A stretch of 41,876 nt of DNA from Alcanivoracaceae bacterium (lineage in GTDB: Bacteria > Pseudomonadota > Gammaproteobacteria > Pseudomonadales > Alcanivoracaceae), in the NCBI GenBank assembly GCA_002706085.1, contig PAJO01000009.1, positions 101,330 through 143,205 of the forward strand, read 5' to 3'. Position 1 is the first letter of the stretch, and each line of letters begins with the position of its first letter. Positions 11,109-26,143 of this stretch are shown here, one piece after another. The translations under genes and the position numbers were made by a program. The notes beneath the pieces were generated by a model. It saw nothing but the letters and a program-made list of their open reading frames with translations, was not told where the DNA came from and searched no databases.

Positions 11109-11135
11109 CGCGCCATGGACTGGTTCGTGCTAGTA

Positions 11136-11440
11136 GGGAGCCTCTGAATAACTCCTTGCGTGCTCAGCGTGTCCTGAAGCGTGCAGCTGTTGTGTCTTGT
11201 CTCGACGGTAAGGGTGGTTCCCTTTCCTAGAGGCAAGGCGCAGCAGATGTGCGCTTCAGGCCGCGCCTTTATGCTCGTCAGGGTACGTAGGGTCTTCCAG
11301 GCTGGCCCGCACTCGTTGTTGCGCTTTTTCAATGGATGGACATACACCTTCAAAAGCGCGCCCCTCTTTACCTTTTGACCCATAGAGGGGGCGAACCAGC
11401 CTGAAAGACTGAGCACGCAAAGGGTTATACAGAGGCTCCT
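11136..11440. repeat. MITE-like structured repeat, copy 1
   Basis: A 305-bp non-coding element with imperfect 32-bp terminal inverted repeats (28 of 32 matching), flanked on both sides by TA. Inside, CCTGAAG at 11173 to CTTCAGG ending 11260 forms an 88-nt hairpin, and GCGCTTTT (11321-11328) pairs with AAAAGCGC (11352-11359). Copies 2 (23674-23988) and 3 (25682-25946) are its relatives in this window. No transposase is encoded. Together with the sequence to 11847, it fills the gap between rlmG and nrtA. Confidence 0.85.
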
Positions 11441-11523
11441 TAATACGGCCTTGGTCGCAGGCGGAGCACCGTTTTCTCCCCATGGCAGTGCAAAAACAGC
11501 GCAATGCGGCGGTAACCGGCCCC

Positions 11524-11543
11524 TGCACCAAAACGGTGGTGCA
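11524..11543 (+). promoter_or_regulatory. NtrC-like enhancer site upstream of nrtA
   Basis: TGCACC is followed by two overlapping GGTG half sites ending in GGTGCA. It resembles the NtrC consensus TGCACC-N5-GGTGCA, but the best-matching right half is at N8 spacing. Several other GTGCA/TGCAC half sites lie between 11480 and 11600. The position, 120-140 bp above a sigma-54 promoter, suits an enhancer. Medium-quality match. Confidence 0.45.
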
Positions 11544-11660
11544 TTTTGGGGAGGGAGGGGCGGTGCATAACAGTGCCGCTTGTGCAATTTATGGGCGTGC
11601 GGGGTGGGTGGCGGTGAATCGTCAATGGCTAACCATATGAAAAAAAAGGTTTTTAAAAAT

Positions 11661-11675
11661 TGGCACAGCATTTGC
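11661..11675 (+). promoter_or_regulatory. sigma-54 promoter of the nitrate-uptake operon
   Basis: Exact match to TGGCAC-N5-TTGC, with the -24 element at 11661-11666 and the -12 element at 11672-11675. Transcription would start near 11687, placing the whole leader RNA on the transcript. Sigma-54 use implies NtrC-type nitrogen-limitation control. Confidence 0.85.
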
Positions 11676-11701
11676 CTTATACGACTCATCACAGCAATAG
11701 C

Positions 11702-11811
11702 GTTGTGACGACATAACCATCTTCGTGACCAACGGCGGTCACGAGAAGATTCGAGCAAAGGCGCTCAAGGTACCCGGTCAACGATGACGGGGGACCCTGA
11801 GCGCTTTTTTT
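11702..11811 (+). ncRNA. ANTAR-target (NasT-responsive) leader RNA with attenuator
   Basis: Hairpin P1 is GTTGT/ATAAC with the hexaloop GACGAC (11702-11717). Hairpin P2 (11719-11750) is ATCTT-CGTGACC / GGTCACG-AG-AAGAT with hexaloop AACGGC. Next comes a long terminator (11761-11811). Two stem-loops with hexanucleotide loops, A at position 1 and G at position 4, are the known signature recognised by ANTAR proteins; P2 matches, P1 has G at position 1. An ANTAR protein, NasT, is encoded 5 kb downstream. Predicted logic: without nitrate, NasS holds NasT and the terminator stops transcription; with nitrate, NasT binds the leader and transcription continues into nrtA. Confidence 0.85.
11761..11811 (+). 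terminator. attenuator terminator before nrtA
   Basis: GCGCTCA (11761-11767) pairs with TGAGCGC (11798-11804), followed by seven Ts. The stem continues inward through GGT/ACC, CCC/GGG and GTC/GAC with regularly spaced mismatches, and is capped by the hexaloop AACGAT, itself of the A1/G4 type. It lies 37 bp before the nrtA start codon, so it must be bypassed for nrtA expression. Confidence 0.9.
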
Positions 11812-11847
11812 ATGCCTGCCGGAGAGCGGGCTAGTGAGGGAAGACTG

Positions 11848-13208
11848 ATGAAAAAAATGATTCGTACGGCACTGACAGCGTTGACCATGGGGCTCTCTGC
11901 CAACGCCATGGCGGCAGATTCGGTGGGCTGGCCGGAGAAGGCCGACCTGAAATTTGGTTTTATCAAACTTACGGACATGGCGCCGCTCGCCGTAGCGTAC
12001 GAGAAAGGGTATTTCGAAGAAGAGGGGCTTTTCGTCACTCTGGAAGCCCAGGCCAACTGGAAAGTGCTGCTGGACCGGGTGATTGACGGTCAGCTCGATG
12101 GCGCACATATGCTGGCAGGTCAGCCGCTGGGTGCCACGATTGGTTATGGCACCGAGGCGCATATCATTACGGCCTTCAGCATGGACCTGAATGGTAACGG
12201 CATTACCGTTTCCAACGCGGTTTGGGAAGAAATGAAGAAAAATATTCCCAGCGAGAACGGTAAACCGGTTCACCCCATCAAGGCTGATGCCCTCAAGCCA
12301 GTAGTGGAAAAGTACAAGGCGGAAGGCAAGCCTTTCAACATGGGCATGGTGTTTCCGGTATCCACCATAACTACGAGTTGCGTTACTGGCTGGCCGCCGG
12401 GGGTTTGAACCCGGGGTACTACGCTCCCCACAAGGGCGATACCAGCGGTCAATTGCAGGCGGATGTGCTGCTGTCGGTGACACCACCACCGCAAATGCCC
12501 GCCACGCTGGAAGCCGGCACTATCTATGGTTACTGCGTGGGAGAGCCCTGGAACCAGCAAGCCGTATTCAAGGGGATTGGGGTTCCGGTTATCACCGATT
12601 ACGAAATCTGGAAAAACAATCCGGAAAAAGTGTTTGGCGTGAGCAAGGGCTGGGCTGACAAGTATCCCAACACCCATATTCGTGTCGTGAAGGCGATGAT
12701 TCGTGCGGCCAAGTGGCTGGATGAAAACGATAACGCCAACCGTCCGGAAGCCGTGAAAATCCTGTCTCAGCCGAACTATGTTGGCGCCGATTATGACGTG
12801 ATCGCCAATTCCATGACAGGCACCTTCGAATACGAAAAAGGCGACAAACGCCCGGTGCCGGATTTCAACGTGTTCTTCCGCTACAACGCGACCTATCCCT
12901 ATTACTCCGATGCTATCTGGTATCTGACCCAGATGCGCCGTTGGGGTCAGATCAGCGAGAGCAAACCCGATAGCTGGTACATGGACGTAGCGAAGAAAGT
13001 GTATCGCCCGGACATCTATGCCCAGGCGGCCAAGTCACTGATCGCGGAAGGCAAGATTGCCGCCGATGAGTTTCCCGATTTTGCCACGGAAGAAGGCTTC
13101 AAACCGCCGCAGAAAGGTTTTATCGACAACATCACCTACGACGGCCGCAAGCCCAACGAATACCTGGCGAAATTCCCGATTGGTCTGAAAGAGGGTGACG
13201 CGCTTTAA
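11848..13208 (+). pseudogene. nrtA: nitrate ABC transporter substrate-binding protein, frameshifted
   Basis: Periplasmic NrtA/CmpA-family solute-binding protein. It starts at the ATG at 11848 after a GAGGGAAG site and has a Sec signal peptide ending near AMA-ADS. The first frame reads well to VFPVST, then becomes meaningless and stops at 12408. The second frame supplies [13 protein letters not shown] and the rest to 13208. One base is missing: ACCCAT, expected for Thr-His, reads ACCAT at about 12364-12368. With it restored, the protein is about 453 residues, normal for NrtA. Either a real null mutation or a homopolymer sequencing error; the intact downstream genes favour neither decisively. 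Confidence 0.85.
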
Positions 13209-13235
13209 GCGCTCGCCCGCCGAGGAGAAGCAATC

Positions 13236-14215
13236 ATGGTGACCCTGACATTCCCAACCTGGATGGAACCCTATCGCGCCCTGGCCACTGGCAAGCCCTG
13301 CTGCGTCAGCTGATTTGGCCGGTACTGGGTATCGCGGCTTTCCTGTTGCTGTGGCAACTGGCGGCTCAGCGTATCGATACCTCGCTGGGGCAGTTCCCTG
13401 GTCCTTCACAGGTCTGGGAGCAGGCTGGAAGCTTGCTGGATGAGCATCAGGCGTCACGGGCCAAAGAGGCTGCGTTTCATGAGCGGCAGGAGAAGTACAT
13501 TGCCAGCCGTCTGGCGCAGCAACCGGAATGGGAACCGGTCTATCGCAGCTACACGGGAGCGCCGACGTTTTTTGACCAGATTGGCACCAGTCTGATCACT
13601 GTGATGAGTGGTTTTCTGCTGGCCTCCATGATTGCCATTCCGCTGGGGATTTTTATCGGCCTGAGCAGCACTGCCCATGCCGCCATGAACCCGCTGATCC
13701 AGTTGTTCAAACCGGTATCGCCGCTGGCCTGGTTGCCGCTGGTGACCATGGTCGTAAGCGCGGTGTACGTAACGGATGATCCGTTGGTCGCCAAATCGTT
13801 TCTCACCTCCATGTTCACGGTGTCGCTGTGCTGTCTGTGGCCGACGCTGATGAACACGGCAGTAGGGGTGACGTCGGTAAGCCAGGATCTCACCAATGTG
13901 TCACGAGTACTGCGTCTTAACGCCATGAGCCATGTCCGCAAGATCGTACTGCCATCGGCATTGCCGATGATGTTCACCGGTCTGCGTCTTAGCCTTGGGA
14001 TCGCCTGGATGGTGTTGATCGCCGCCGAGATGCTGGCCCAAAACCCCGGGCTCGGAAAATTCGTCTGGGATGAATTCCAGAACGGTAGATCCCAATCCCT
14101 TGGCCGGATCATGGTGGCGGTCATCGTCATCGGTCTGATCGGTTTTCTGCTGGACCGCCTGATGTTGATGTTGCAGCGGGCTCTGGTCTGGGACAAGTCA
14201 TCCGTGCAGCGATAA
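13236..14215 (+). CDS. nrtB: nitrate ABC transporter permease NrtB, start region out of frame
   Basis: Inner-membrane permease with a binding-protein-dependent transport domain; the EAA-type loop lies near residues of the form LRLSLGIAWMVLIAAEMLA. The only well-placed start, ATG 13236 behind GAGGAG, is in another frame and stops at 13313. The permease frame is open from 13202 and encodes a plausible first membrane helix (IWPVLGIAAFLLLWQL) before its first in-frame ATG at 13346, which cuts that helix. Restoring one G (ATGGGT for ATGGT at 13236) joins start and frame. It lies 27 bp after nrtA and 22 bp before the ATPase gene. Confidence 0.8.
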
Positions 14216-14237
14216 ACGACCGAATAGGAGAATCTTC

Positions 14238-15077
14238 ATGAAAGCACTACTGGAACTGTCCAACGTGGGGATGAAGTTCGACACGCCGAAAGGTCAATTC
14301 GAAGCCCTTAAGGATGTAAACCTGAAAATCGAGTCTGGTGAATTTGTCTCGTTGATCGGTCACTCCGGTTGCGGTAAATCCACTGTTCTCAACATCGTCG
14401 CCGGTCTATTGCAGGCCACCGATGGCGGCGTGATTCTGGACAAGCAGGAAGTCACGGAGCCTGGCCCCGAACGGGCCGTGGTATTCCAGAATCATTCACT
14501 GTTGCCCTGGTTGAGCGCCTTCGAAAATGTGGAGTTGGCGGTCAAGCAAGTGTTCAAGAAAACCAAGAGCAAAGCCGAGATCCGTGACTGGGTGGCACAC
14601 AACCTGGAGCTGGTGCACATGGCCCATGCCATGCACAAGAAACCGGATGAAATTTCCGGCGGTATGAAACAGCGCGTGGGGATTGCCCGGGCACTGGCCA
14701 TGCAGCCACAGGTATTGTTGATGGACGAACCGTTTGGTGCTCTTGACGCACTGACCCGGGCACACCTTCAGGATTCCCTGATGGAAATCCATGCCCAGCT
14801 GGGTACCACCGTGATCATGATTACCCACGATGTGGATGAGGCGGTGTTGCTGTCCGATCGCATCGTGATGATGACCAATGGCCCGTCCGCCACCATTGGC
14901 GAAATCCTTGACGTCAAGCTGCCGCGGCCCCGGGACCGTCTTGCCTTGGCGGATGATCCCACTTTCGTGCGTTGTCGCCAGCAGGTGCTGCAGTTCCTGT
15001 ATGAAAAGCAGCGCAAGGTGGAGCCGATGCCGAAACGCAACAGCGCCAACACAGAAGGGGTGCGTAAACGCGCCTGA
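14238..15077 (+). CDS. nrtD: nitrate ABC transporter ATP-binding protein
   Basis: Cytoplasmic ABC ATPase of 279 residues energising the NrtA-NrtB importer. Walker A GHSGCGKST, the Q-loop VFQNHSLLPWLS, a signature of the form SGGMKQRVGIARALA, Walker B VLLMDEPFGALD and the switch histidine in ITHDVDEA are all intact. There is no fused NrtA-like domain, so it is NrtD-type rather than cyanobacterial NrtC. AGGAGAATCTTC precedes the ATG. It is intact although both upstream transporter genes look frameshifted. Confidence 0.92.
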   Translation: MKALLELSNVGMKFDTPKGQFEALKDVNLKIESGEFVSLIGHSGCGKSTVLNIVAGLLQATDGGVILDKQEVTEPGPERAVVFQNHSLLPWLSAFENVELAVKQVFKKTKSKAEIRDWVAHNLELVHMAHAMHKKPDEISGGMKQRVGIARALAMQPQVLLMDEPFGALDALTRAHLQDSLMEIHAQLGTTVIMITHDVDEAVLLSDRIVMMTNGPSATIGEILDVKLPRPRDRLALADDPTFVRCRQQVLQFLYEKQRKVEPMPKRNSANTEGVRKRA

Positions 15078-15202
15078 TTTTCCGCTTAACGAATACGACT
15101 GCCATTGCCCTGAACAGTGGCGGTAACAGGAAAGGTATGTCCGCACGTTGCGGAAAGCCTGAAAAGTTTTACTGGGAAGTTAACTTGCTGAGGAAGAAAA
15201 AC

Positions 15203-16381
15203 ATGAAACATTCTGCCATTGCTGCCGGCGTCATACTCTCCACGCTGGGCTTTACGGGGACGGCCAGTGCTGAAGAGGATGCCTTTATTACGGCTCTGAA
15301 AAGCGGCACGCCACTGCTCAATATGCGCCTGCGCTATGAAGAAGTGGACAGCGATGCCTTCACCGAGGAGGGCCAGGCACTGACCTTGCGTACTCGACTG
15401 GGTTACCAGAGCGGGAAATTCTATGGCTTTGATGTGATGGGGGAATTTGAGGATACCCACATCGTCGGCCAGGTGGATAATTATGCCCCGAACCAGGCCG
15501 GCTACCCGGTGATTGCCGACCCGGAAGTGACCGAGCTGAACCGTGCGGCGATCAGCTACACCGGCAGCAATGCACTGGAAGGTTTTTCTGCCATCTACGG
15601 TCGTCAACGCATCATCTATGACAATGCGCGCTTTGTGGGCAACGTGGGCTGGCGGCAGGACGAACAGACCTTCGATGGTGCCAAAGTGGATTATGCCCTC
15701 AGTGATTTCACTTTCTCTGCCGCTCATCTGACTGCGGTCAACGGCATCACTCCCGTATTCGACGCCAATGTGTCCAGCAACCTGTTCAACGTGGGCTGGA
15801 AAGGGGCGCCCGGCGGCTCCCTGACGGCCTACGGTTATTTGCTGGAAACCGACAACGTGCCGGATTCCAACAATGACACCTGGGGTCTGCGTTACGCCGG
15901 GGCCTTCGATCTGGATGCCATCAAATTGCTGTTGACCCTGGAGGGTGCCCAGCAAGAGGTGGAAGCGGGCGATACCGAGTACTACTTTGCTGAGCTGGGC
16001 GCAGAAGTCGCCGGCGTTACGGTGAAAGTGGCACAGGAAGTGCTTGGTTCAGACGACGGCACGGTCGCATTCCAGACCCCGTTGGCGACAAAACATGCCT
16101 TCAATGGTTGGGCGGACCTGTTTCTGGCGACCCCTGCAAATGGTTTGCAGGATACCTTTGTGAGCGTGGGCAGCAAGCTGGCGGGATTCAAGCTGGCGGC
16201 GGTCTATCACGACTTTCAGTCTGATGAAGGTAGCAGCGACTACGGGTCGGAACTGGATGTACTGGTGGCGCGCCCGATAGGCAAGCACTACGTGGTAGGC
16301 ATGAAGTATGCCGATTACAGTGCGGAGGATTTTGCCGACGATACCCGTAAAGCGTGGGTGTGGGGTGAGATTAAATTCTGA
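15203..16381 (+). CDS. outer-membrane porin-like beta-barrel of the nitrate operon
   Basis: A 392-residue predicted outer-membrane protein, similar in style to the alginate-export/porin families. The signal peptide is MKHSAIAAGVILSTLGFTG and cleaves near ASA-EED. Alternating hydrophobic strands and a C-terminal phenylalanine (GEIKF) are typical of outer-membrane barrels. The start at 15203 is set by AGGAAG 8 bp upstream. Its place after the ATPase gene suggests nitrate passage across the outer membrane; this is inferred from context only. Confidence 0.8.
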   Translation: MKHSAIAAGVILSTLGFTGTASAEEDAFITALKSGTPLLNMRLRYEEVDSDAFTEEGQALTLRTRLGYQSGKFYGFDVMGEFEDTHIVGQVDNYAPNQAGYPVIADPEVTELNRAAISYTGSNALEGFSAIYGRQRIIYDNARFVGNVGWRQDEQTFDGAKVDYALSDFTFSAAHLTAVNGITPVFDANVSSNLFNVGWKGAPGGSLTAYGYLLETDNVPDSNNDTWGLRYAGAFDLDAIKLLLTLEGAQQEVEAGDTEYYFAELGAEVAGVTVKVAQEVLGSDDGTVAFQTPLATKHAFNGWADLFLATPANGLQDTFVSVGSKLAGFKLAAVYHDFQSDEGSSDYGSELDVLVARPIGKHYVVGMKYADYSAEDFADDTRKAWVWGEIKF

Positions 16382-16402
16382 TCACATTTTGGTGCCAGGA
16401 AG

Positions 16403-16432
16403 TGCATCGCACTGGTGCACTTTTGGGGTGCA
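16403..16432 (+). promoter_or_regulatory. two overlapping NtrC-like sites upstream of nasT
   Basis: TGCATC-N5-GGTGCA at 16403-16419 and TGCACT-N5-GGTGCA at 16416-16432 each match TGCACC-N5-GGTGCA at 11 of 12 positions. They share the central TGCA. They lie 55-85 bp upstream of a perfect sigma-54 promoter, a usual enhancer distance. Confidence 0.8.
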
Positions 16433-16486
16433 CGAATGCTGGTTTAATAAACACATTATAAATCATCAGGTTATGAATAGGATGGC

Positions 16487-16501
16487 TGGCACAACCGTTG
16501 C
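16487..16501 (+). promoter_or_regulatory. sigma-54 promoter of nasT-nasS
   Basis: Exact TGGCAC-N5-TTGC match. The expected start near 16513 excludes the upstream ATGs at 16473 and 16482 and leaves 16545 as the nasT start codon. Confidence 0.85.
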
Positions 16502-16544
16502 AAAAGAATCCAGAACAACCACGATTCCGGACGCGCACGACGTT

Positions 16545-17132
16545 ATGGCCCTGAAAATCATGCTGGTGGACGACCAGCCACCTCGCGCTGCCATTCTGGA
16601 GCGGGCTCTTATTGATGAGGGCCATGAAATCCTGTGTCGCCTCACCAGTGCGGCTGGCTTGGCGGAAAAGGTACAGGACAGCAATCCGGATGTAGTGATC
16701 GTTGATATGGATGCGCCGGACCGGGACACCCTGGAAAGTATGGCGCTGGTACAGCGTGATATGCCGCGCCCCATGGTGATGTTCTGCAACCAGGATGACG
16801 AAGACCTGGTCGTGGCCGCTCTGCGGGCAGGGGTGAGTGCGTATGTGGCAGGGGAAACGGATCTGACCCGGGTACGTGGTGTCATGCGGGTGGCCACCGC
16901 CCGTTTTCGTGAGTACCAGGCTCTGCGTGAAGAGCTGGAACAAACCCGCGAAGCACTGGCCGAACGCAAGATTATTGAGCGTGCCAAAGGGTTGCTGATG
17001 CAGCGTCGGCGGCTCAATGAACAGGATGCTTACAGCACCTTGCGCCGCCAGGCGATGAATACCGGGCAGCCCCTGGTTCAGGTGGCGCGTTCGGTGCTCG
17101 ATTATGCCGAGATGCTGAAGGCACAGGGATAG
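16545..17132 (+). CDS. nasT: NasT, ANTAR-domain antitermination regulator
   Basis: 195-residue RNA-binding antiterminator: a pseudo-receiver domain (acidic D9/D10, D54 in VVIVDMD) then a coiled linker and a C-terminal ANTAR domain (ERKIIERAKGLLMQ onward) that binds paired hexaloop hairpins. The start MALKIMLVDD matches the family N-terminus and lies about 32 nt after the sigma-54 start point; the ribosome site is weak. The expected target is the leader at 11702-11811. NasS is encoded next and would sequester NasT when nitrate is absent, as in Azotobacter and Paracoccus. Confidence 0.92.
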   Translation: MALKIMLVDDQPPRAAILERALIDEGHEILCRLTSAAGLAEKVQDSNPDVVIVDMDAPDRDTLESMALVQRDMPRPMVMFCNQDDEDLVVAALRAGVSAYVAGETDLTRVRGVMRVATARFREYQALREELEQTREALAERKIIERAKGLLMQRRRLNEQDAYSTLRRQAMNTGQPLVQVARSVLDYAEMLKAQG

Positions 17133-17197
17133 TGGGAGCGGTGGTTTCATTGTGATCTTTGGCGCAGGCCCAATTCCGGTTGAGCGACCGCTCTCAC
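17132..17197. repeat. REPIN-like inverted repeat, GGTGGTT class
   Basis: GTGGGAGCGGTGGTTTC at the left and GAGCGACCGCTCTCAC at the right form an inverted pair. It begins at the last base of the nasT stop codon and separates nasT from the basic small ORF and nasS. Confidence 0.7.
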
Positions 17198-17213
17198 AAA
17201 CACAGGAGAGAAC

Positions 17214-17369
17214 ATGCGACGTGTGATGCCATTGAAGAAGTCTCGAAGCCTGATTGCTGCTCCGGCCAAACCCGTCAGCAGGGCACGGCGTCCCGTTGAA
17301 GTGTGTGAGCCTCTGCGGCGTTCCGCCGCCAGCGTTCGGCGTCAGGGACTTGCGGAGCAAGGTGAATGA
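17214..17369 (+). CDS. 51-residue arginine-rich ORF coupled to nasS
   Basis: Small unrecognised ORF. It has the best ribosome site of the cluster (CACAGGAGAGAAC before ATG) and its TGA overlaps the nasS ATG as ATGA. The product is strongly basic, with eleven Arg, several Lys, one Cys and several Pro, and no clear signal peptide or membrane segment. It could be a leader peptide whose translation delivers ribosomes to nasS, since nasS has no strong site of its own, or a small RNA-binding protein. No homologue recognised. Confidence 0.5.
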   Translation: MRRVMPLKKSRSLIAAPAKPVSRARRPVEVCEPLRRSAASVRRQGLAEQGE

Positions 17370-18526
17370 AAATTCGTATTGGCTACATGCCGTTGACCGA
17401 CAGCCTGCCGCTGGCAGTGGCACAAGAAGCGGGTTACTTCAGTGCCGAAGGGCTGGATGTGGAGTTGCAGCCGGAATGGAGCTGGGCAAGTCTGCGCGAT
17501 CGCCTGTTGGTAGGCCAGCTGGATGCGGCCCCCATGCTGGCGCCCATGTTGATGGCCACGACGCTGGGGTTGGGCTGTATCAAAAAACCACTGGCCACTG
17601 CATTTTCAATGGGTTTGAACGGTAACGGCATTACTGTGTCGCCGATGCTGTTCCAGGGGCTGTGTGCGTTGTCCGAAGGGCCGACCCCCAACGACATGGC
17701 CAATGCCATGAACAAATTAGTGGCGGCGCGGGCCAGTAGTGGTGAAGACCCTCTGGTGCTGGCGGTCGTTTTCCCTTTTTCCTGTCATGCCTACCAGTTG
17801 CGTCATTGGTTGAGTGTGGCGGGATTGGACCCGGATCACGACGTCAAGCTGGTGGTGCTGCCGCCATCGCAGATGGTGGACCACTTGCGCATGGGCCATA
17901 TCGATGGCTTTTGCGTCGGCGAGCCCTGGAATAGCCTGGCGGCGCTGACCGGGGCCGGCCATTGCGTCCTGTCGGGTTATCAAATCTGGGAGAACGCGCC
18001 GGAGAAAGTGTTGGCAGTCTCCCGCGACTGGGTGGCTCGCCATCCGGATGAACATCGGGCATTGCTGCGAGCCTTGTACAAGGCGGCCTGTCATGCCGAC
18101 GAGAATCTGGTCGATAGCTTGTCATTGCTGGCACATCCCGCCTGGCTGGATGTGCCGGAAGAAATCATTCGGGCCCCGTTCAGTCAACGCCTGCCAGGCG
18201 GTCTGACCGGGCAGCCGTTCCCGGCGCACCATTTTCATGTGTTCGCCGGGTTCCACGCCAATTTCCCCTGGCGTTCCGATGCCCGTTTCCTGCTTGAAGA
18301 AATGCAGCGCTGGCGTCAGTGTTCGCTGGAAGAAAAACAGACTTTTGCTGCCCAGTGCTACCGCACGGACCTGTTCCGCGATGCACTGGCGGATCTCACC
18401 AGCCTGCCGCTGATGGACAGCAAACCCGATGAACGCCACGCCGGCCACTGGGAATTACCCGGCGAACCCAGGCCCCTGGAACTGGGCCCGGATCGCTTGT
18501 TGAAAGTCATTGAAACCGAAGAATAG
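17366..18526 (+). CDS. nasS: NasS, cytoplasmic nitrate-sensing NrtA-like protein
   Basis: 386-residue nitrate sensor related to NrtA but without a signal peptide, starting directly with MKIRIGYMPLTDSLPLAVAQ. Shared NrtA motifs include [10 protein letters not shown], the HAYQLRHWL block (the region broken in nrtA), FCVGEPWN and a C-terminal NFPWRSDARFLL. Family knowledge: NasS binds NasT without nitrate and releases it when nitrate binds. The start ATG overlaps the stop of the basic small ORF. It is the last gene of the sigma-54-driven nasT unit. Confidence 0.92.
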   Translation: MKIRIGYMPLTDSLPLAVAQEAGYFSAEGLDVELQPEWSWASLRDRLLVGQLDAAPMLAPMLMATTLGLGCIKKPLATAFSMGLNGNGITVSPMLFQGLCALSEGPTPNDMANAMNKLVAARASSGEDPLVLAVVFPFSCHAYQLRHWLSVAGLDPDHDVKLVVLPPSQMVDHLRMGHIDGFCVGEPWNSLAALTGAGHCVLSGYQIWENAPEKVLAVSRDWVARHPDEHRALLRALYKAACHADENLVDSLSLLAHPAWLDVPEEIIRAPFSQRLPGGLTGQPFPAHHFHVFAGFHANFPWRSDARFLLEEMQRWRQCSLEEKQTFAAQCYRTDLFRDALADLTSLPLMDSKPDERHAGHWELPGEPRPLELGPDRLLKVIETEE

Positions 18527-18611
18527 TCACTGATTGGCCCGTCATTGAGACGGTAGGCGCAGTGCGAGAGCTTGCTCGCTATCCTCCCCCGCGCCGTACT
18601 CAGGCGACACA

Positions 18612-18681
18612 GTGGGAGCGGTGGTTCCACCGCGAATACAAGGTCAGGCAAGGGCAATCGCGGTCGGACGACCGCTCCCAC
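18612..18681. repeat. REPIN, GGTGGTT class
   Basis: Two inverted REP units: GTGGGAGCGGTGGTTCCACC at the left and a right unit ending GACCGCTCCCAC, about 70 bp in all. It lies between the convergent nasS and TauE-family genes. The rest of the 18527-18755 gap shows nothing else. Confidence 0.8.
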
Positions 18682-18755
18682 TTTACGGCCCTGCCTGCTG
18701 TGAGCGTCTGCAGCAGGATCATGACCTCGGTGTGGTGTCACGTTGGAGGTGCTCC

Positions 18756-19538
18756 TCAAACGAGAAAACTCACCCCCACGCCCAGCAACAGCAGGGCGAA
18801 CAGCCGTTTCAACAGCAGTGGCGATAACCGGTGTGCGAGACGCGCGCCAAACCGGGCGAAGAACATGCTGGTCAACGCGACCCCCAACATGGCAGGAAGG
18901 TACACGTACCCCAGGCTCCACTCGGGCAGTTGTGGCTGACGCCAGCCAATCAGCATGAAACTCAAGGCACTGGCGGCGGCGATGGGTAACCCGCACGCTG
19001 ACGAGGTGGCCACTGCCTGCTGCATGGGCAGGCTGCGCCAGGTAAGGAAAGGGACATTCAGGGTGCCACCGCCGATGCCAAAGATTGCGGAGGCCCAGCC
19101 GATTACCCCGCCAGTGGTCGTCAGGCCCAGCTTGCCAGGCACCGCACGGCTGGCACTGGGTTTCAGATCCAGCGCCATTTGAATAGCGATGACGATGGCG
19201 AACACACCAATAATCTTTTGTAGCATCGGCCCCTGAATTGAAGCGGCGGTTAGCGAACCCAGCCCGGCACCCAGCAGGATACCCACAGTCATCCAGGCAA
19301 CAATAGACCATTGCACCGCGCCCTTGCGGTGGTGTTCCATCACCGAGTTGATGGATGTGAAAACGATGGTCGCCAACGATGTGCCCACCGCCAGATGGGT
19401 CAAGACTTGCGGGTCGATGCCCTGAGCGGTAAAGCTCAAGACCAGTACCGGCACGATGATGATGCCACCGCCGACCCCAAACAGACCGGCCAATACCCCG
19501 GCCGCAGCCCCCAAAACCAGATAAAGCAAAAATTCCAT
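18756..19538 (-). CDS. TauE/SafE-family sulfite/anion exporter
   Basis: Polytopic inner-membrane protein of 260 residues with two copies of the family motif, GLFGVGGGIIIVP near the N-terminus and AIFGIGGGTLNVPF in the middle. About eight hydrophobic segments are visible. The start at 19538 (MEFLLYLVLG) follows AAGGGTTGAGT; an upstream ATG at 19583 would add a non-membrane extension. Members export sulfite, sulfoacetate or similar anions; the substrate here is unknown. It lies downstream of the flavin reductase and mesD on the same strand. Confidence 0.85.
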   Translation of the reverse strand: MEFLLYLVLGAAAGVLAGLFGVGGGIIIVPVLVLSFTAQGIDPQVLTHLAVGTSLATIVFTSINSVMEHHRKGAVQWSIVAWMTVGILLGAGLGSLTAASIQGPMLQKIIGVFAIVIAIQMALDLKPSASRAVPGKLGLTTTGGVIGWASAIFGIGGGTLNVPFLTWRSLPMQQAVATSSACGLPIAAASALSFMLIGWRQPQLPEWSLGYVYLPAMLGVALTSMFFARFGARLAHRLSPLLLKRLFALLLLGVGVSFLV

Positions 19539-19617
19539 ACTCAACCCTTGGAAGAAATCTGTGCAAAGCCACATCGGTGGCAATGTAATAACGGAAAAAA
19601 GAAGCGGGGGAGGGCTC

Positions 19618-20127
19618 TCAGGTGCGAATAGCCGCGTCCAGATTGCAATATTGCCCTTTGAAATACAGCAGCGGCTGTGTGTCGCACGTTTGCTGCAGGC
19701 TCAGTGCCCGCACTTCACCAATCACGATCAAGTGATCGCCGGCTTCGTGCTCGGCGTGAATGACGCAGTCCAGCCAGTGCAGGCTGCCACCAATCACCGG
19801 GTTGCCCAGGGGGGAACGAGTCCAGTCGATGGCTTGCCACTTGTCCGCGCCCTGTTGGGCAAAGCGGTTGGAGACCGCCACTTGCTCATCGGAAAGAATG
19901 TTCACCGCAAAGCGGCCCGCCCGACGGATCTTGGGGTAGCTGAAAGAGTCACGCTTCACACTGAAGGACACCAGCGGCGGGGTGGTCGATACGCTGTAGA
20001 ACGACTGGCAGGTAAAGCCGATGGGCTCATCATCAATGTGTGACGTAATGACGGTGAGCCCGGAGGCGAAATGCCCGAGCGCCTGGCGAAAATGCAGTGG
20101 GTCGATGGCCGGTGTGGTGAGTGACAT
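19618..20127 (-). CDS. flavin reductase (FMN-dependent NAD(P)H:flavin oxidoreductase)
   Basis: 169-residue flavin-reductase-like split-barrel protein. Visible are the FASGLTVIT opening, the flavin-site block GFTCQSFYSVSTTPPLVSFSV, FAVNILS and a GDHLIVIGEV strand. Such enzymes deliver reduced FMN/FAD to a partner. ATG 20127 is preferred to 20133 for ribosome-site spacing (GGA seven bases upstream). It follows mesD by 86 bp on the same strand, so it may supply reduced flavin to the oxygen-dependent MesD/MesX step; this link is inference. Confidence 0.85.
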   Translation of the reverse strand: MSLTTPAIDPLHFRQALGHFASGLTVITSHIDDEPIGFTCQSFYSVSTTPPLVSFSVKRDSFSYPKIRRAGRFAVNILSDEQVAVSNRFAQQGADKWQAIDWTRSPLGNPVIGGSLHWLDCVIHAEHEAGDHLIVIGEVRALSLQQTCDTQPLLYFKGQYCNLDAAIRT

Positions 20128-20213
20128 AGTCATTCCAGAATAGAAGTAACGCAGATGAGTGAATCAGGCGGGCTGTCCTGACAATGCAGAACCCCCGCTC
20201 TTGCCGGCGGTAT

Positions 20214-21239
20214 TCAGGCCAGCTCGTTGCGGACGATCTCTGCCCCTGCACTCAGTGCTCGCAGTTTTCCCTGGGCCACGTGGCGGGGCAGGGGGGCCAT
20301 GCCGCAGTTGGTGCATGGATACAGTTTGTCGGAATCCACGAATTGCAGTGCCCGTCGCAAGGTGCTGGCCACTTCTTCCGGGCTTTCTACGGTGTGACTC
20401 GCCACATCAATCGCGCCTACCATCACTTTCTTGCCGCGAATCAGCTCAATCAGGTCCATGGGGACATGGGAGTTGTGGCACTCCAGGGACACGATATCGA
20501 TGGTTGAGGCTTTTAGCTTGGGGAAGGCTTCTTCATATTGCCGCCACTCGGAACCCAGCGTTTTTTTCCAGTCGTTATTGGCTTTGATGCCGTAGCCATA
20601 ACAAATATGCACGGCGGTTTCACACTTGAGCCCTTCAATGGCTCTTTCCAGTGTGGCCACGCCCCAGTCATTGACCTCATCAAAAAACACATTAAAGGCC
20701 GGTTCGTCGAACTGGATGATATCGACGCCAGCTGCCTCCAGCTCTCTGGCTTCCTGATTAAGGATCCTGGCGAATTCCCATGCCAGTTTCTCCCGGCTTT
20801 TGTAATGGGCATCGTAAAGCGTATCGATCATGGTCATGGGGCCGGGCAGGGCCCACTTGATCGGCTGCCGGGTTTGTTCACGCAGAAAGCGGGCATCCTC
20901 ATCAAATACCGGCTTCTGACGACTCACCGCCCCGACCACCGTGGGGACACTGGCATCGTAACGGTCACGAATCTTCACCGTCTCGCGCTTTTCGAAATCG
21001 ACTCCGTCCAAATGTTCGATAAAGGTGGTAACGAAGTGTTGGCGGGTTTGTTCACCATCGCTGACGATGTCGATGCCGGCCAGCTGCTGCTCATGCAAGC
21101 TCAGGCGCAGGGCGTCCTGTTTGCCTTCAGCGAGCGTCTCGCCCTGCAACTTCCAGGGGGACCAGAGCGTTTCGGGCTCGGCCAGCCAGCTGGGCTTGGG
21201 CAGACTGCCCGCGGTGGATGTGGGTAACAATCGTTTCAT
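20214..21239 (-). CDS. mesD: MesD-type folate-independent methionine synthase (core MetE)
   Basis: 341-residue protein equal to the C-terminal catalytic barrel of cobalamin-independent methionine synthase, lacking the N-terminal half. The zinc ligands are present: H211 and C213 (HIC), E253 (SLE) and C312 (TNCG). The lack of the folate-binding N-terminal domain and adjacency to a DUF1852 gene match MesD of the four folate-independent methionine synthase families. MesD is reported to need MesX and oxygen, with an uncertain methyl donor. It follows mesX by 15 bp in one operon. Confidence 0.85.
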   Translation of the reverse strand: MKRLLPTSTAGSLPKPSWLAEPETLWSPWKLQGETLAEGKQDALRLSLHEQQLAGIDIVSDGEQTRQHFVTTFIEHLDGVDFEKRETVKIRDRYDASVPTVVGAVSRQKPVFDEDARFLREQTRQPIKWALPGPMTMIDTLYDAHYKSREKLAWEFARILNQEARELEAAGVDIIQFDEPAFNVFFDEVNDWGVATLERAIEGLKCETAVHICYGYGIKANNDWKKTLGSEWRQYEEAFPKLKASTIDIVSLECHNSHVPMDLIELIRGKKVMVGAIDVASHTVESPEEVASTLRRALQFVDSDKLYPCTNCGMAPLPRHVAQGKLRALSAGAEIVRNELA

Positions 21240-21254
21240 TATCTGTGCTGCCTT

Positions 21255-22232
21255 TTAAGCGCCGAAATTCGCAGACCATTGATTCAGCACCGCCCGGTAA
21301 GGCTCAATCAGATGCTGCTCAGCGAACTTGCCTTGTTTGATGGCCAATTGGCTGCGTTCTTCCCGGTCGTAATGAATGCGGGTCAGTGAGTAATCCGAGT
21401 GCTTGAGGCTGGGCTGGTAGCGGTTGCCGGCCTCGGAATTGGCGTTGTAAATCTCGGGTCGATAGATTCTCTGGAACGTCTCCATGGTGCTGATGGTGCT
21501 GATCAGCTCCAGGTTGGTGTAGTCGTTCACCAGGTCGCCAAAGAAGAAAAAGGCCAGCGGCGCTACGCTGTGGGGGGGCATGAAATAGCGCACGCTCAAT
21601 CCCATTTTCTTGAAGTAACTCTCGGTCAATGATGATTCATTGGGCAGGTATTCGAACCCCAGCACGGGATGGTGATTCTCGGTGCGGGTGTACACCTTGT
21701 TATCCGATACGCTGATACAGATCACGGGCAGTTTGCTGAAGTTTTCCCGGTACGCGCTTGAGTGAACGAAGTGCTGGAACAGCTTGCCGTGCAGATCACC
21801 AAAGTTCTCAGGGATGCTGAAATGGGGCTGATCCTTGTTATGGTTTTGCAGGGCAATGCTGAAGTCGTAATCCCGCACGTAGGAGGAGAAGTTGTTCCCG
21901 ACAATCCCCTCGATGTGCTTGTTGGTATGCCGGTCAACGATGGTGGTTTTCAGGATTTCGATGGTCGGGAAAGTGTCGCCATTGCCTTCAATATCGATAT
22001 CCACCGACACAATGTCATGCTGCACGGCGTAGCGATCGCCATTGGGGTTGTCCCAGTGTGCCAGCGCATTAAACCGGTTGTTGATCATCGTCAGGGTGTC
22101 GCGCAGGTTCTCCTTGCGCCGCTCACCCCGCGCCAGGTTGGCAAAGTTGGTGGTGATGCGCGTGCTGTCGGATGGACGGTAATCCTCATCGAAACAAATG
22201 CGCTTGATGCTGAAAGTCAGTTCGTTGCTCAT
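21255..22232 (-). CDS. mesX: MesX (DUF1852), partner of MesD
   Basis: 325-residue DUF1852 protein with the family opening FSIKRICFDEDYRPSDSTR and the conserved RGERRKENL and HWDNPNGDRY blocks. No signal peptide or membrane segment. In Acinetobacter the DUF1852 protein MesX is required for MesD to make methionine; its chemistry is unknown. It is the first gene of the minus-strand operon mesX-mesD-(flavin reductase) and is divergent from the LysR regulator. Confidence 0.88.
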   Translation of the reverse strand: MSNELTFSIKRICFDEDYRPSDSTRITTNFANLARGERRKENLRDTLTMINNRFNALAHWDNPNGDRYAVQHDIVSVDIDIEGNGDTFPTIEILKTTIVDRHTNKHIEGIVGNNFSSYVRDYDFSIALQNHNKDQPHFSIPENFGDLHGKLFQHFVHSSAYRENFSKLPVICISVSDNKVYTRTENHHPVLGFEYLPNESSLTESYFKKMGLSVRYFMPPHSVAPLAFFFFGDLVNDYTNLELISTISTMETFQRIYRPEIYNANSEAGNRYQPSLKHSDYSLTRIHYDREERSQLAIKQGKFAEQHLIEPYRAVLNQWSANFGA

Positions 22233-22361
22233 GGTGACAGGGCGTCCGCGTCAGTATTGGGCATGGCTTGCACCGCAGGGTGTGTACCGCAATGCAACCT
22301 GATTGGCGGCCATTATGCGCAAGTCTCGACTTGAGGTTAATTGGTATTATTTCAACATTTC

Positions 22362-22376
22362 ATGAGTTATTCTCAT
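22362..22376. promoter_or_regulatory. candidate LysR/MetR operator
   Basis: Perfect inverted repeat ATGAG-TTATT-CTCAT in the 294-bp gap between mesX and the LysR gene. It resembles the MetR consensus TGAA-N5-TTCA in spacing, with G/C instead of A/T at one position each side. The rest of the gap shows no gene. Confidence 0.5.
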
Positions 22377-22526
22377 TTTGGTGTTGACCCCTGCCATGGG
22401 GGACCCGGCTGTCAGGGTGTGTACTCTGGATGGGCGCGAGGCTTGGGGCGCTGTTGCGAGAGAGTGTGTAGCAGGGCTCACGGCGGTGCAGGCCCCGTCC
22501 CACAATGGACATTATTGGAGGATCTG

Positions 22527-23450
22527 ATGCTGGAACTACGACATCTTGCCACCCTGCGAGCGATTGATGAGGCCGGCTCGATGGTGGACGCGGCCGATCG
22601 ACTGCATGTCACCCAGTCTGCCTTATCGCATCAGCTGAAAGATCTGGAACACCGGCTGGGCATGGAACTCGTCGTGCGGCGCTCCCGCCCGGTGCGGTTT
22701 ACCACCGCCGGGCTGCGATTGCTGACGCTGGCGCAGGACGTGCTTCCCAGGGTGCAGCAGGCCGAACGGGAGTTGAAGCGGCTTGCCGAGGGGCAGTCGG
22801 GCCGGCTGCATATCGCGATTGATTGCCACTCCTGTTTTCAGTGGCTGATGCCGGCACTGGATGCCTTTCGCGAACACTGGCCAGACGTGGAACTGGATCT
22901 GTCGGCGGCCTTCAGTTTTGCGCCATTACCGGCGCTGTTGCGCGGCGATCTGGATATGGCGATCACCTCGGATCCGGTGGAGGATGCCGCGGTACAGTTC
23001 CTGCCGCTGTTTCGCTATGAGCTGGTGCTGGCGGTATCGGGGCGCTCGCCGTTGGCGGGCCGCAAATGGATCGAACCGACCGATATCAGTGACCAGACCC
23101 TGATCACCTATCCCGTCGAGCGCGAGCGTCTGGATGTGTTCACTGCGTTTCTTGCCCCCGCCGGTGCCGAGCCCGCGGCGGTACGCACTGCTGAACTGAC
23201 GCCCATGACCGCGCAGCTGGTGGCAGCAGGCCGCGGCGTGGCGGCGCTTCCTAATTGGGCGCTGACCGAATATACCGCCCATGATTTGCTGAAAACCGTG
23301 CGCCTGGGAGAGAGCGGCGTGTGGCGGACCCTGTATGCGGCGGTGCGTATCGAGGATGCCCAGCGTCCCTACATTCAGGAGTTCCAGGAGACGGCGCGGG
23401 AGGTGTGTTTCAAGACGTTGAGTGGGGTGAAGGCGGTTAAGGGCAGTTAA
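22527..23450 (+). CDS. LysR-family regulator, MetR-like
   Basis: 307 residues: N-terminal winged helix-turn-helix (VDAADRLHVTQSALSHQLKDLEHRLG) and a C-terminal LysR substrate domain (from about 90). MLELRHLATLRAIDEAGS is close to MetR, which uses homocysteine as co-effector. GGAGG lies six bases before ATG 22527; longer upstream sequence is not coding. Divergent from mesX-mesD, it probably controls that operon. The last codons and stop are formed from the first heptamer of a repeat array. Confidence 0.88.
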   Translation: MLELRHLATLRAIDEAGSMVDAADRLHVTQSALSHQLKDLEHRLGMELVVRRSRPVRFTTAGLRLLTLAQDVLPRVQQAERELKRLAEGQSGRLHIAIDCHSCFQWLMPALDAFREHWPDVELDLSAAFSFAPLPALLRGDLDMAITSDPVEDAAVQFLPLFRYELVLAVSGRSPLAGRKWIEPTDISDQTLITYPVERERLDVFTAFLAPAGAEPAAVRTAELTPMTAQLVAAGRGVAALPNWALTEYTAHDLLKTVRLGESGVWRTLYAAVRIEDAQRPYIQEFQETAREVCFKTLSGVKAVKGS

Positions 23451-23474
23451 CAGTTAACAGTGAATAGTTAACAG
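23444..23474. repeat. heptamer array A at the MetR-like gene stop codon
   Basis: Four units in tandem: CAGTTAA, CAGTTAA, CAGTGAA, TAGTTAA. The stop codon TAA (23448-23450) is part of the first unit. Unit order matches the left arm at 38258. No inverted partner is seen nearby. Confidence 0.8.
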
Positions 23475-23564
23475 CGAAAAACCAGGGCTGCTGTGGTGCT
23501 TGTCTGCAAGCGATGATGAGATTTGGCGTTGAGACTAACGCGTTTCGAAAGGCACAACGTTGCC

Positions 23565-23589
23565 GTAGGAGCGTCGCTCGCGGCGCGAT
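23565..23589 (+). repeat. REP sequence, left unit of a split pair
   Basis: GTAGGAGCGTCGCTCGCGGC followed by GCGAT. Its 21 bases from GAGCGTC to GCGAT are repeated exactly inverted at 24015-24035, on the far side of the MITE-like copy 2. Confidence 0.8.
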
Positions 23590-23673
23590 AAACCATCAGG
23601 ATCGACAGCGGTTCGCCACAGAGCGCAAGAGTCAAAACCTTTTTCCTCGGTGATCTCGGTGCGCTCTATGTTA

Positions 23674-23988
23674 AGGAGCCTTTGAATAACGCCTCGCATG
23701 CTCAGCGTGTCCTGAAACGTGTAGCTGTTGTGTCTTGCGACGGTAAGGGTGGTTCCTTTCCTGGAGGCAAGGCGCAGAAGATGTGCGCTTCAGGCCGCGC
23801 CTTTATGCTCGTCAGGGTACGTAGGCTCTGCCAAGCTGTCCCGCACTCGTTGTTGCGCTTCCTTCGAAGGTGAAGAGCCGATGGATAGACATACACCTTC
23901 AAAAACGCGCCCCTCTTTACCTTTTGACCCATAGTGGGGCGAACCAGCCTGAAAGACTGAGTACGCGAGGTGTTATTCAGAGGTTCCT
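23674..23988. repeat. MITE-like structured repeat, copy 2
   Basis: 315-bp relative of the element at 11136. The 32-bp terminal inverted repeats match at 27 positions and are flanked by TA on both sides. Between the arms it keeps the long hairpin and a CGCCCC/GGGGCG hairpin near the right end. It fills most of the 23451-24196 gap, along with the heptamer array, the REP pair and the fabG terminator. Confidence 0.85.
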
Positions 23989-24014
23989 TAAACCCTGTTT
24001 TTAAAGGTTCAGGC

Positions 24015-24035
24015 ATCGCGCCGCGAGCGACGCTC
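24015..24035 (-). repeat. REP sequence, right unit of a split pair
   Basis: Exact reverse complement of 21 bases of the REP at 23565-23589. With the MITE-like element removed, the two units would be about 110 bp apart, a REPIN-like spacing. Confidence 0.75.
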
Positions 24036-24103
24036 ATATGTCGTGAAACGCTCCTGTTGGAGCCAACTCGGCCTCAGCTGCGCTGTCGTAATGCTTGCCC
24101 CAC

Positions 24104-24133
24104 AAAAAAGCCGCACCTTGCGGCGCGGCTTTT
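24104..24133. terminator. terminator of the FabG-like gene
   Basis: AAAAGCCGC pairs with GCGGCTTTT around a ten-base centre. On the minus strand the stem is followed by a T-run, 63 bp after the reductase stop codon. The symmetry allows action on both strands. Confidence 0.8.
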
Positions 24134-24196
24134 CTGTCTATCGAGTAGCCCAAGCTTCACACCCCGTTGCGGGCTGAAGCCTGCCGCTGGAGGCGG

Positions 24197-25615
24197 TTAC
24201 GCACCCAGCAGCATCTGGCCACACACTCGCACAACGTTGCCGGTCAGGCCCTGAGAGGCCGGGCTGGCAAAGAAGGCGATGGTTTCGGCCACGTCCACCG
24301 GCTGACCGCCCTGGTTCATGGCGTTCATACGACGGCCCGCTTCACGAATGGTGAAGGGGATGGCAGCGGTCATCTGGGTTTCAATGAAGCCCGGAGCCAC
24401 GGCATTGATGGTGATGCCTTTCTCGGCGTACTCATCCTTGTAGGCATCGATCATGCCAATCACGGCCGCTTTGGAGGCTCCGTAGTTGGTCTGACCCAGG
24501 TTGCCCGCAATACCGGCGATGGAGCTGATGGAAATGATGCTGCCGCCTTCGCTGATGCCGCCATCGGCCAACAGCTTTTCATTGATGCGCAGCTGGCTGG
24601 CGATGTTGATGTCCAGCACCATGTCCCAGAATTTCTCCGGCATGTTGCCCAGCATCTTGTCGCGGGTGACGCCGGCGTTGTGAACGATGACATCGAAACC
24701 GCCGACCGCTTTGCCCTTGGCTGCGATGGCTTCGGGTGCTTCGGCTGCAGTGATGTCCAGCTCCAGGGTGTCACCACCAATCTGCTCGGCAACCTTGTTC
24801 AGGTCGTCGGCCATGGGCGGGATGTCCAGCACGGTTACGGTCGCGCCGTCACGGGCCAGCACTTCGGCGATGGCAGCACCAATACCGCGAGAGCCGCCAG
24901 TGACCAGGGCTTTTTTACCAGCCAGAGGCTTGTCCCAGTCGAATTTTTTGGCGTCGAAACCGGCTTCAGAAACACGTACGACCTGGGCAGAGACGTAAGC
25001 GGATTTGGGCGACAGGAAGAAGTGCAGCGGGGAGGCCAGTTGCGCCTCGGCACCTTCATTCACATAGACCAGCTGTGCGGTTGCGCCTTTCTTGATTTCC
25101 TTGCCCACAGAGCGGGTGAAACCTTCCAGAGCACGTTGGGCCACGCGGGCGGTGCCGGTCTGGGTTTCCGGGGTGCGGCCAACGACCACAACTCGGGCAC
25201 ACTTTTCCAGCTTGCGGATCACCGGGTGGAAGAACTCCCACAGGGCTTTCAGCTCGTCGGGGTTTTGAATACCGGTGGCATCAAAGACCAGGCCCTTGAA
25301 CTTGGCATCGTCATCGCGGTTGGCGGTGTAGTTGTCCGCATCAACGCCCAGCTTGCCGGCTTTCTTTTGCAGCTCGGAAGCATTGCCGTTGTTGGCCAAC
25401 ACGGAAACCTTGGCTTCCGGTGCCCCTTTCAGGGTGCCGAGAATGCTGTCGACAGCGGTAGAACCGTTGGCGGCACCTACCAGTACACGGCCCTTGATGA
25501 AGGAGGCCTGGCCCGGCTGCCAACGATCGAGAATGACCGGAATGGGGAGGTTGATTGCGCCAAACAGCGCCTTGCCCATGGGGGAATTGGCAATCGCCTG
25601 ATAGGTATCGCTCAT
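24197..25615 (-). CDS. fabG: high-molecular-weight FabG-like 3-oxoacyl-(ACP/CoA) reductase
   Basis: 472-residue short-chain dehydrogenase, about twice the size of classic FabG. The N-terminal 220 residues form an extra Rossmann-like domain without catalytic residues. The C-terminal half has the cofactor motif TGGSRGIG (239-246), NAG, the serine in SISSIAG and YGASK (Y378, K382). This matches the HMwFabG/FabG4 type, which reduces 3-oxoacyl-CoA. It starts at ATG 25615 after AGGACAGGATC. Divergent from fadI, it suggests a paired acyl-CoA chemistry role, in beta-oxidation or storage lipid. MITE-like copy 3 sits 66 bp upstream of the start. Confidence 0.85.
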   Translation of the reverse strand: MSDTYQAIANSPMGKALFGAINLPIPVILDRWQPGQASFIKGRVLVGAANGSTAVDSILGTLKGAPEAKVSVLANNGNASELQKKAGKLGVDADNYTANRDDDAKFKGLVFDATGIQNPDELKALWEFFHPVIRKLEKCARVVVVGRTPETQTGTARVAQRALEGFTRSVGKEIKKGATAQLVYVNEGAEAQLASPLHFFLSPKSAYVSAQVVRVSEAGFDAKKFDWDKPLAGKKALVTGGSRGIGAAIAEVLARDGATVTVLDIPPMADDLNKVAEQIGGDTLELDITAAEAPEAIAAKGKAVGGFDVIVHNAGVTRDKMLGNMPEKFWDMVLDINIASQLRINEKLLADGGISEGGSIISISSIAGIAGNLGQTNYGASKAAVIGMIDAYKDEYAEKGITINAVAPGFIETQMTAAIPFTIREAGRRMNAMNQGGQPVDVAETIAFFASPASQGLTGNVVRVCGQMLLGA

Positions 25616-25681
25616 GATCCTGTCCTTTGCCATCAGAGATGAATGTGTCCGGTTAACCTTATGCCAACCAGAACGGGTTAT

Positions 25682-25946
25682 ACAGGCTGCTGAGCACCCC
25701 CTTGCATGCTCAGCGTGGCCTGAAGCGTGCAGTTGTTGTGTCTTGATTCGACGGACAGGGTGGTGCCCTTTCCTAGAGTCAAGGCGCAGCAAATGGGCGC
25801 TTCAGGCCGCGCCCTCCGGGTCTTCCATGCAGACTCGTACTCGTCGTTGCAATTTTTTGATGGATCGACATACACCTTCAAAATTGCGCCTAGATTACGA
25901 GCCAGCCTGAAAGACTGAGTACGCAAGGGGGTGCTCAGCAGCCTGT
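25682..25946. repeat. MITE-like structured repeat, copy 3 (variant arms)
   Basis: 265-bp relative of copies 1 and 2. The 32-bp inverted arms match at 30 positions, but their outer half differs from the other copies and has changed on both sides together. The inner stem reads GCAATTTT (25849-25856) with AAAATTGC (25880-25887) where copy 1 has GCGCTTTT/AAAAGCGC. The small right-hand hairpin of copies 1 and 2 is missing. It lies between the divergent FabG-like gene and fadI. Confidence 0.85.
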
Positions 25947-26143
25947 CCAAGGGGTGCCGAAAGAAGACAGCGCAAAATCAGACTTCTTTCGTAGGGCAGT
26001 CAAACCGGCCCTGTCGCACACTGGCGCGTATTGAATCACTGCAATGTTGCGGGTGTATTGACCGGCACCCATGTTCAAACAGTCGTTTGAGCCAATGAGG
26101 CATTGACCGGTGCGGGTAGACTGCGCCCTGAGTAGTGAATACC

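Follow-up and report, generated by a model that had tools for sequence, protein, structure and literature searches.

Three related palindromic elements lie on the + strand of a 41,876-nt stretch of the genome of an Alcanivoracaceae bacterium (contig PAJO01000009.1 of assembly GCA_002706085.1, positions 101,330 to 143,205 of the forward strand; hereafter the window), and the third of them raises the question of how the two sides of a paired structure come to change together. Its outer arms differ from those of the first copy and yet pair with each other (CAGGCTGCTGAGCACCCCC vs GGAGCCTCTGAATAACTCC), and its inner stem reads GCAATTTT/AAAATTGC vs GCGCTTTT/AAAAGCGC in copy 1. A preliminary description of this DNA had recorded the three elements and both of these differences correctly, and had located the copies properly, except that each end lies one base further inside. 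The elements belong to a family of non-autonomous miniature inverted-repeat transposable elements (MITEs) of about 263–322 bp, in which co-variation is general across the element and richest at its ends. Judged from sequence, members of the family would be mobilized in trans by transposases of the IS5 family of insertion sequences (IS) into intergenic 4-bp YTAR-like sites, with selection acting on the paired structure after insertion, perhaps aided by template switching; we assign this reading a probability of about one half. The copies in the window, the ends of which are of two types (A and B), comprise the following features:

11137..11439, + strand: copy 1, 303 bp, end type A (opening with GGAGCCTCTGAATAACTCC, closing with GGCTCC); flanks GTAG / TTAA, duplication not intact
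11166..11266, + strand: inner hairpin of copy 1, about 100 nt including the basal stem, from folding
11321..11359, + strand: inner stem of copy 1, GCGCTTTT (11321-11328) / AAAAGCGC (11352-11359)
23671..23674, + strand: left TTAA target duplication of copy 2, right counterpart at 23988-23991
23675..23987, + strand: copy 2, 313 bp, end type A; bounds fixed by the empty site in genome G006
25679..25682, + strand: target duplication of copy 3, decayed; left TATA, right TCCA (25946-25949), TTAA in 12 aligned empty sites
25683..25945, + strand: copy 3, 263 bp, end type B (CAGGCTGCTGAGCACCCCC); outer 23 nt of the arms identical when mirrored
25849..25887, + strand: inner stem of copy 3, GCAATTTT (25849-25856) / AAAATTGC (25880-25887)

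Copies 1 and 3 share a layout in which the terminal inverted arms enclose an inner hairpin of about 100 nt along with other inner stems; copy 2 consists of the same parts, but its inner stem is imperfect (GCGCTTCC/AAAAACGCGC), a point absent from the preliminary description, and its interior is rearranged in the minimum-energy fold. The terminal arms delimited by a repeat finder measure 37 nt (86% complementary) in copy 1 and 32 nt (94%) in copy 3, and the fold energies lie beyond those of all dinucleotide shuffles (z -11.2 for copy 1 and -6.2 for copy 2 with 100 shuffles each, -13.4 for copy 3 with 200). Open reading frames (ORFs) crossing copies 1 and 2 yielded no Pfam match at E 0.1.

Genome scans, in which only the best candidates were scored (40 per genome within the genus, 16 per genome in the family-wide scan), located 371 hits, 289 of which have both arms; the other 82 were dropped because they were incomplete, lay at contig ends or had diverged anchors, leaving 178 distinct copies, two of which contain N and were left out of the arm and tree counts (n = 176). 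Short, present in 178 full copies, bounded by terminal inverted repeats and devoid of a transposase gene, the elements bear out the MITE-like nature proposed earlier. The genome to which the window belongs (3.78 Mb, 67 contigs) holds at least 40 places matching over at least 100 bases (best 40 of 92 candidates), often at contig ends, as is expected since repeats break assemblies. All 17 genomes searched from the genus contain matches, few in G001, G007 and G010 and up to dozens elsewhere, and within the family a type B copy as query gave matches in 32 of 46 genomes, covering 6 of 8 genera. Outside the family, one copy was found (L352, in G101, which belongs to a different family in the same order), and a scan of named records (at least 87 stretches) returned, among the matches listed, only Alcanivorax records and one Pseudomonadales metagenome-assembled genome. 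No match to copy 3 was obtained in a plasmid collection, and none to copy 1 in a phage collection. Gene context was scored with naive ORFs on the 66 copies having 1.2 kb on either side: ORFs flank both sides in 64 of them (23 divergent, 12 convergent, 29 tandem), and by the same naive ORFs none of these 64 appears to split a gene at the insertion.

Type A ends read GGAGCCTCTGAATAACTCC, type B ends, the kind found in copy 3, mostly CAGGCTGYTGAAAARCCCC. Identical 4-mers flank 60 of the 178 copies (54/154 of type A, 6/21 of type B), namely CTAG (18), TTAA (14), TTAG (7), CTAA (5) and, in the other 16, CTGG (4), CAAG (4), CTTG (4), TTGA (2), TAAA (1) and TCAA (1). In the first set of copies, 46 of 117 had identical 4-mers, compared to a mean of 9.9 and a maximum of 19 after shuffling, with none at 5 or 6 bp. 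This 4-bp YTAR-like target is as expected of a derivative of the IS5 family, the target of IS5 being YTAR. Insertion is established for copies 2 and 3. The empty site of copy 2 in G006 reads ATG-TTAA-ACCCTG, and the window has TTAA on either side of the element; the region of copy 3 was recovered from 14 other genomes, 12 of which have empty sites with TTAA where the window has TATA and TCCA. The target was 4-bp TTAA in both cases, intact at copy 2 and decayed at copy 3, and these empty sites together with the 60 identical 4-mers document target site duplication as in other MITEs. The TA flanks from which a TA-targeting transposase had been proposed are real at copies 1 and 2, but form part of the 4-bp target; at copy 1 (GTAG/TTAA) no intact duplication is present, and the empty sites of copies 2 and 3, a type of site earlier proposed as a check for TA duplication, reveal TTAA.

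The remaining two of the 14 genomes, G007 (L262) and G012 (L263), share an orthologous copy elsewhere in the same intergenic region; this copy is close to the start of the gene downstream of the site of copy 3 and has a mirrored arm variant of its own. A synteny break with G006 located at copy 2 was considered and rejected, the empty site being clean; window and G006 diverge at 24020-24036, some tens of bases beyond the end of copy 2, where a repetitive extragenic palindromic (REP)-like GCCGCGAGCGACGCTC is located, and the letters part at about 24036.

Elements that may supply the transposase were found for both end types. For type A this is an IS of 1150-1153 bp in G004, the ends of which have 2 and 4 mismatches in 19 to type A. 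It occurs in 12 places with both ends, 11 of which (all except L144) have identical flanking 4-mers (TTAG, CTAG, TTAA, CAAG), although two of the 12 (L134 and L145) have the same flanking letters and may represent a single stretch that was duplicated. Its transposase carries the domains DDE_Tnp_1 and DUF772, exceeds the cut-off of NCBIfam NF033581 (IS5 family) with 354 bits, and is about 60% identical to annotated plasmid IS5 transposases and 70% identical to one of Marinobacter; the left end of a Marinobacter plasmid IS differs from type A by 1 mismatch in 16. Type B ends bound a 1292-bp IS in G141 (L333), with the unmatched flanks TTAG and CTAA, and its transposase scores 255.8 bits on NF033581 (cut-off 140); an IS1182 identity was rejected for this element (183.1 bits vs an IS1182 cut-off of 270). 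Ends of this kind also stand 1274-1309 bp apart in G061 and G152 of the same order, two of the three stretches having identical flanks. As is usual for MITEs, related autonomous elements thus exist for either type, and the similarity of the ends to those of IS5-family elements is that of an IS5-family derivative. Mobilization in trans by these IS5-family transposases is likely, as had been suggested, albeit into the 4-bp YTAR-like target and not into TA.

Matches to DDE_Tnp_1 occur in only 5 of the 17 genomes of the genus. G012, which has dozens of MITE copies, contains none, and its helper may be lost or lie outside the reach of the DDE_Tnp_1 model; the genome of the window has no DUF772 match, and its sole DDE_Tnp_1 match is at a contig end. 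Among the DDE_Tnp_1 loci examined, no type B helper was found inside the genus. The longer DDE_Tnp_1 proteins of G002 and G034 (open frames of 454-511 aa) were discarded as candidates, their ends having 4 mismatches in 16 to type B.

The arms of copy 3, previously taken as a change private to it, represent instead a second end type, which is shared by 21 of the 176 copies and matches a second IS5-family element. Of the others, 154 are of type A and one is mixed (L290, left out of the A/B counts, with two B-like ends, one of them shifted by a base); it is the only exception to the agreement in type of both ends, which holds in 175/176 copies. When a tree is built from the core alone, with the arms excluded, the A/B label takes 11 changes, at least four of them forced by well-supported branches; support for this tree is weak overall (15 of 170 inner branches starred), and recombination between copies could equally produce the pattern, although the two ends of a copy do agree in type as just noted. 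Type B is plentiful in G045, a genome from another genus of the family, and G004 contains a third end type (L448, L449). In the sequences compared, one and the same core is found with at least two end types (A and B), and the IS5-family element matched by A differs from that matched by B.

Type B-like ends were also observed on smaller elements. L305-L310 (G034 and G035, another genus of the family) represent a different short MITE-like element of mostly about 150 bp with the ends CAGGCTGTTGAAAAACAGCC and CAGGGTGTTGAAAAA. L294 in G045, which has an end at 1516 (-), is flanked on either side by TTAG and represents a type B element in minimal form, about 50 nt long, and the 47-nt element L331 in G290 (1505-1551) contains little beyond a pair of type B ends, one reading CAGGCTGTTGAAAAAC and the other being its inverse with two mismatches.

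Paired change proved to be a property of the family, in arms as well as inner stems. The 154 type A copies comprise 102 distinct arm pairs. Over their outer 23 nt, these pairs depart from the consensus 260 times on the left and 254 times on the right, and 200 changes are mirrored, vs 21.7 (maximum 51) upon shuffling of partners; for type B (22 copies, looser rule) the numbers are 31 vs 9.2 (maximum 20), shared descent being ignored by the shuffles in both cases. L025, L442 and L439 have at least three mirrored changes and not a single unmatched one, and in L404, L425, L378 and L379 one-base length changes are mirrored in both arms. A prevalence of unpaired arm changes, which would speak against such a property, was not encountered: over 19 nt, type A arms are identical in 90 of the 154 copies, differ once in 47 and two to five times in 17. 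At pairs with a Watson-Crick consensus, double types number 49 for the 23 arm pairs, 18 for the 24 hairpin pairs and 18 for the 22 inner pairs (2.13, 0.75 and 0.82 per pair), and one-sided types per pair are similar throughout (2.61, 2.29 and 2.36, respectively). Since the ends of the G004 helper are themselves unequal at 4 of 19 positions, the arm symmetry of the MITE, with 137 of the 154 type A copies differing at 0 or 1, exceeds the apparent need of the helper. Of the earlier proposal that paired change implies selection or arm copying, the paired change itself thus stands, and either selection or arm copying may be its cause.

The timing of mirrored change was approached via the decay of the target duplication in type A copies, 7 of the 154 with strongly shifted arms being left out. 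Mirrored and unmatched arm positions per copy amount to 0.65 and 0.44 with intact duplication (54 copies), to 0.62 and 0.74 with three matching flank bases (39 copies), and to 1.57 and 1.02 with two or fewer (54 copies; p = 0.0007 and 0.003 vs intact). On the end branches of the core tree, double and single changes in the arms are about as frequent as each other and increase in parallel, numbering 17/16 in 54 intact copies and 47/46 in 61 decayed ones; the corresponding values are 8/25 and 12/17 for the hairpin and 0/16 and 11/26 for the inner stems. Two double changes have arisen between orthologues, at 149/223 (L453 vs L398) and at 21/244 (L378 vs L379). In 13 orthologue pairs, the element accumulated 0.0157 changes per site vs 0.0571 in the flanks (120 bp each side), i.e. 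3.6 times fewer, and it is slower at p < 0.05 in 9 of the 13 pairs and significantly faster in none.

If the structure is under selection, the question arises whether it acts as RNA of a defined strand. In 176/176 copies the hairpin has its better fold on the + strand, by 21 kcal/mol on average, and among hairpin pairs predicted on that strand Watson-Crick pairs have become G-U in 105 cases and A-C in 39, both as expected if the inner hairpin were made as a + strand transcript and selected at the RNA level. However, shuffled whole elements likewise favour the + strand (-7.4, sd 7.4 kcal/mol, 40 sequences), pointing to composition alone, and for the right inner stem it is the - strand that gives the better fold, in 157/176 copies. 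The G-U excess vanished with pairs predicted on both strands (18 vs 26; union of predicted pairs 87 vs 62, p = 0.049), and the inner stem leans the opposite way (54 vs 93). At the gathering score, Rfam provided no family for the elements and only tRNA in the window, copy 1 giving one chance-level match (E 0.56); in 11100-11480 no promoter-like site was found, and one terminator-like site stands against 0.4 expected. A strand-specific functional RNA was therefore dropped as highly improbable. With the G-U excess lost in the hairpin and the inner stem leaning oppositely, DNA as well as transcripts from either side are therefore compatible with the data, and the selected form might be a DNA cruciform or a transcript hairpin read from either side.

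Paired structure would, in the reading preferred here, be retained after insertion most likely via selection on the folded element. The same mirrored changes could have been fixed before insertion if both ends have to fit one transposase, the variants recording extinct or unseen IS5-family helpers and the copies merely decaying. Such an origin accords with distinct IS5-like elements carrying distinct ends (types A and B; GGATGCTCTGCACAACCC in G035), with the near identity of type A to the Marinobacter end, with the surplus of double types in the arms and with orthologue changes being mostly one-sided. It is nonetheless rather unlikely, because it fails to account for the co-varying inner stems, the excess symmetry over the unequal ends of the helpers and the slow orthologues; moreover, mirrored changes increase with target-site decay, two double changes arose between orthologues, and in an informal comparison most of the 27 listed copies with at least three mirrored changes share their arms with no other listed copy except an orthologue or a close relative in few places. 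The inner-stem double changes support selection, since no transposase should read these stems. Rewriting of one arm from the other without selection, by replication template switching (quasipalindrome correction), is a described mechanism according to the available part of its source (PMC8794818), and would suit the mirrored one-base length changes as well as the lack of a robust one-strand G-U excess, which stepwise RNA compensation should give. As the sole cause it is improbable, because neutral copying explains mirrored blocks but not the slow rate: the divergence of the element should then be near that of its flanks, and the short-loop inner hairpin, though the better substrate, has fewer double types than arms at least about 220 nt apart. 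Template switching between arms is, however, a likely source of some double changes under the preferred reading of selection on the folded element. Against that reading weigh several points: paired-site changes between orthologues are 23 one-sided vs 2 double (without the repeated L228/L398 pair), several of the one-sided ones break a pair, and the element is nominally slightly faster than its flanks in 3 of the 13 pairs. These pairs are not independent (L453, L228 and L398 represent one site) and were chosen for recognisable elements, duplication decay is an age proxy only, as old copies may stem from old masters with other ends, and the core tree behind the end-branch counts is weakly supported. 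A wider picture, advanced tentatively, would be that of a mobile element which its hosts, the oil-degrading Alcanivorax and relatives, have retained as a folded device between genes, its pairing constrained, arm-to-arm copying supplying the double changes, and its core swapping end types suited to different IS5-family transposases.

Whether paired changes in long palindromes originate by stepwise compensation, through selection acting on the two ends or by template switching is an open question. With more than 100 copies, some of them at shared sites in sister species, as well as empty sites and helper-like elements, it becomes testable in this family, and the occurrence of one core with at least two matched end types bears on how MITEs outlive a given helper.

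Further repeats reside in the window. A REP-like repeat is present in two copies (39242-39290 and 39477-39525) near a 147-aa ORF with a Y1_Tnp domain (PF01797; 41381-41824, + strand), which is RAYT-like. In addition, a GTTAAC/CAGTTAA-rich repeat of 31-33 nt occurs at 23444-23476, 34558-34588 and 38385-38417, the last two inverted relative to the first.

REP and REPIN sequences are short tagged palindromes moved by a Y1 transposase without target duplication. The Alcanivorax MITE resembles those associated with RAYT in being palindromic and intergenic, and the Y1_Tnp gene and REP-like repeats are located in the same window; its long inverted ends and 4-bp duplications nevertheless set it apart from REP/REPIN. 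Correia/NEMIS and ERIC elements have other ends and other helpers, a distinction made here by description and not by sequence. With these and other bacterial MITEs forming transcript hairpins, as far as the available parts of the sources go (PMC10969869, PMC2229807), the family has in common many copies and a palindromic, foldable and mostly intergenic nature; for Correia transcripts, cleavage by RNase III is described (PMC10969869, available part). No description of the family was found in the literature on Alcanivorax MITEs and repeats, a search that mostly did not cover subscription journals and is not proof of novelty. MITEPsy1 of Pseudomonas syringae, as described in the available part of its source (PMC3189936), is 100 nt long, has six copies in the strain studied and no transposase, and was caught transposing in vivo; its ends are GGAAGGTCTGAAAAAGCC / GTATCCTCTGAAAAAGCC, its family is marked 'IS5?', and the 4-nt duplication is CTAG or YTAA. 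It shares with the Alcanivorax MITE the IS5-like ends, the same kind of 4-nt target and the lack of a transposase, but differs in its 100 nt with unequal ends, and that part of the source reports no comparable folded core (PMC3189936). To the IS5 family itself (NCBIfam NF033581 group) the Alcanivorax MITE is linked by its ends, its 4-bp YTAR-like target and the helper-like transposases, whereas it differs in having no transposase gene of its own and in the greater symmetry of its ends.

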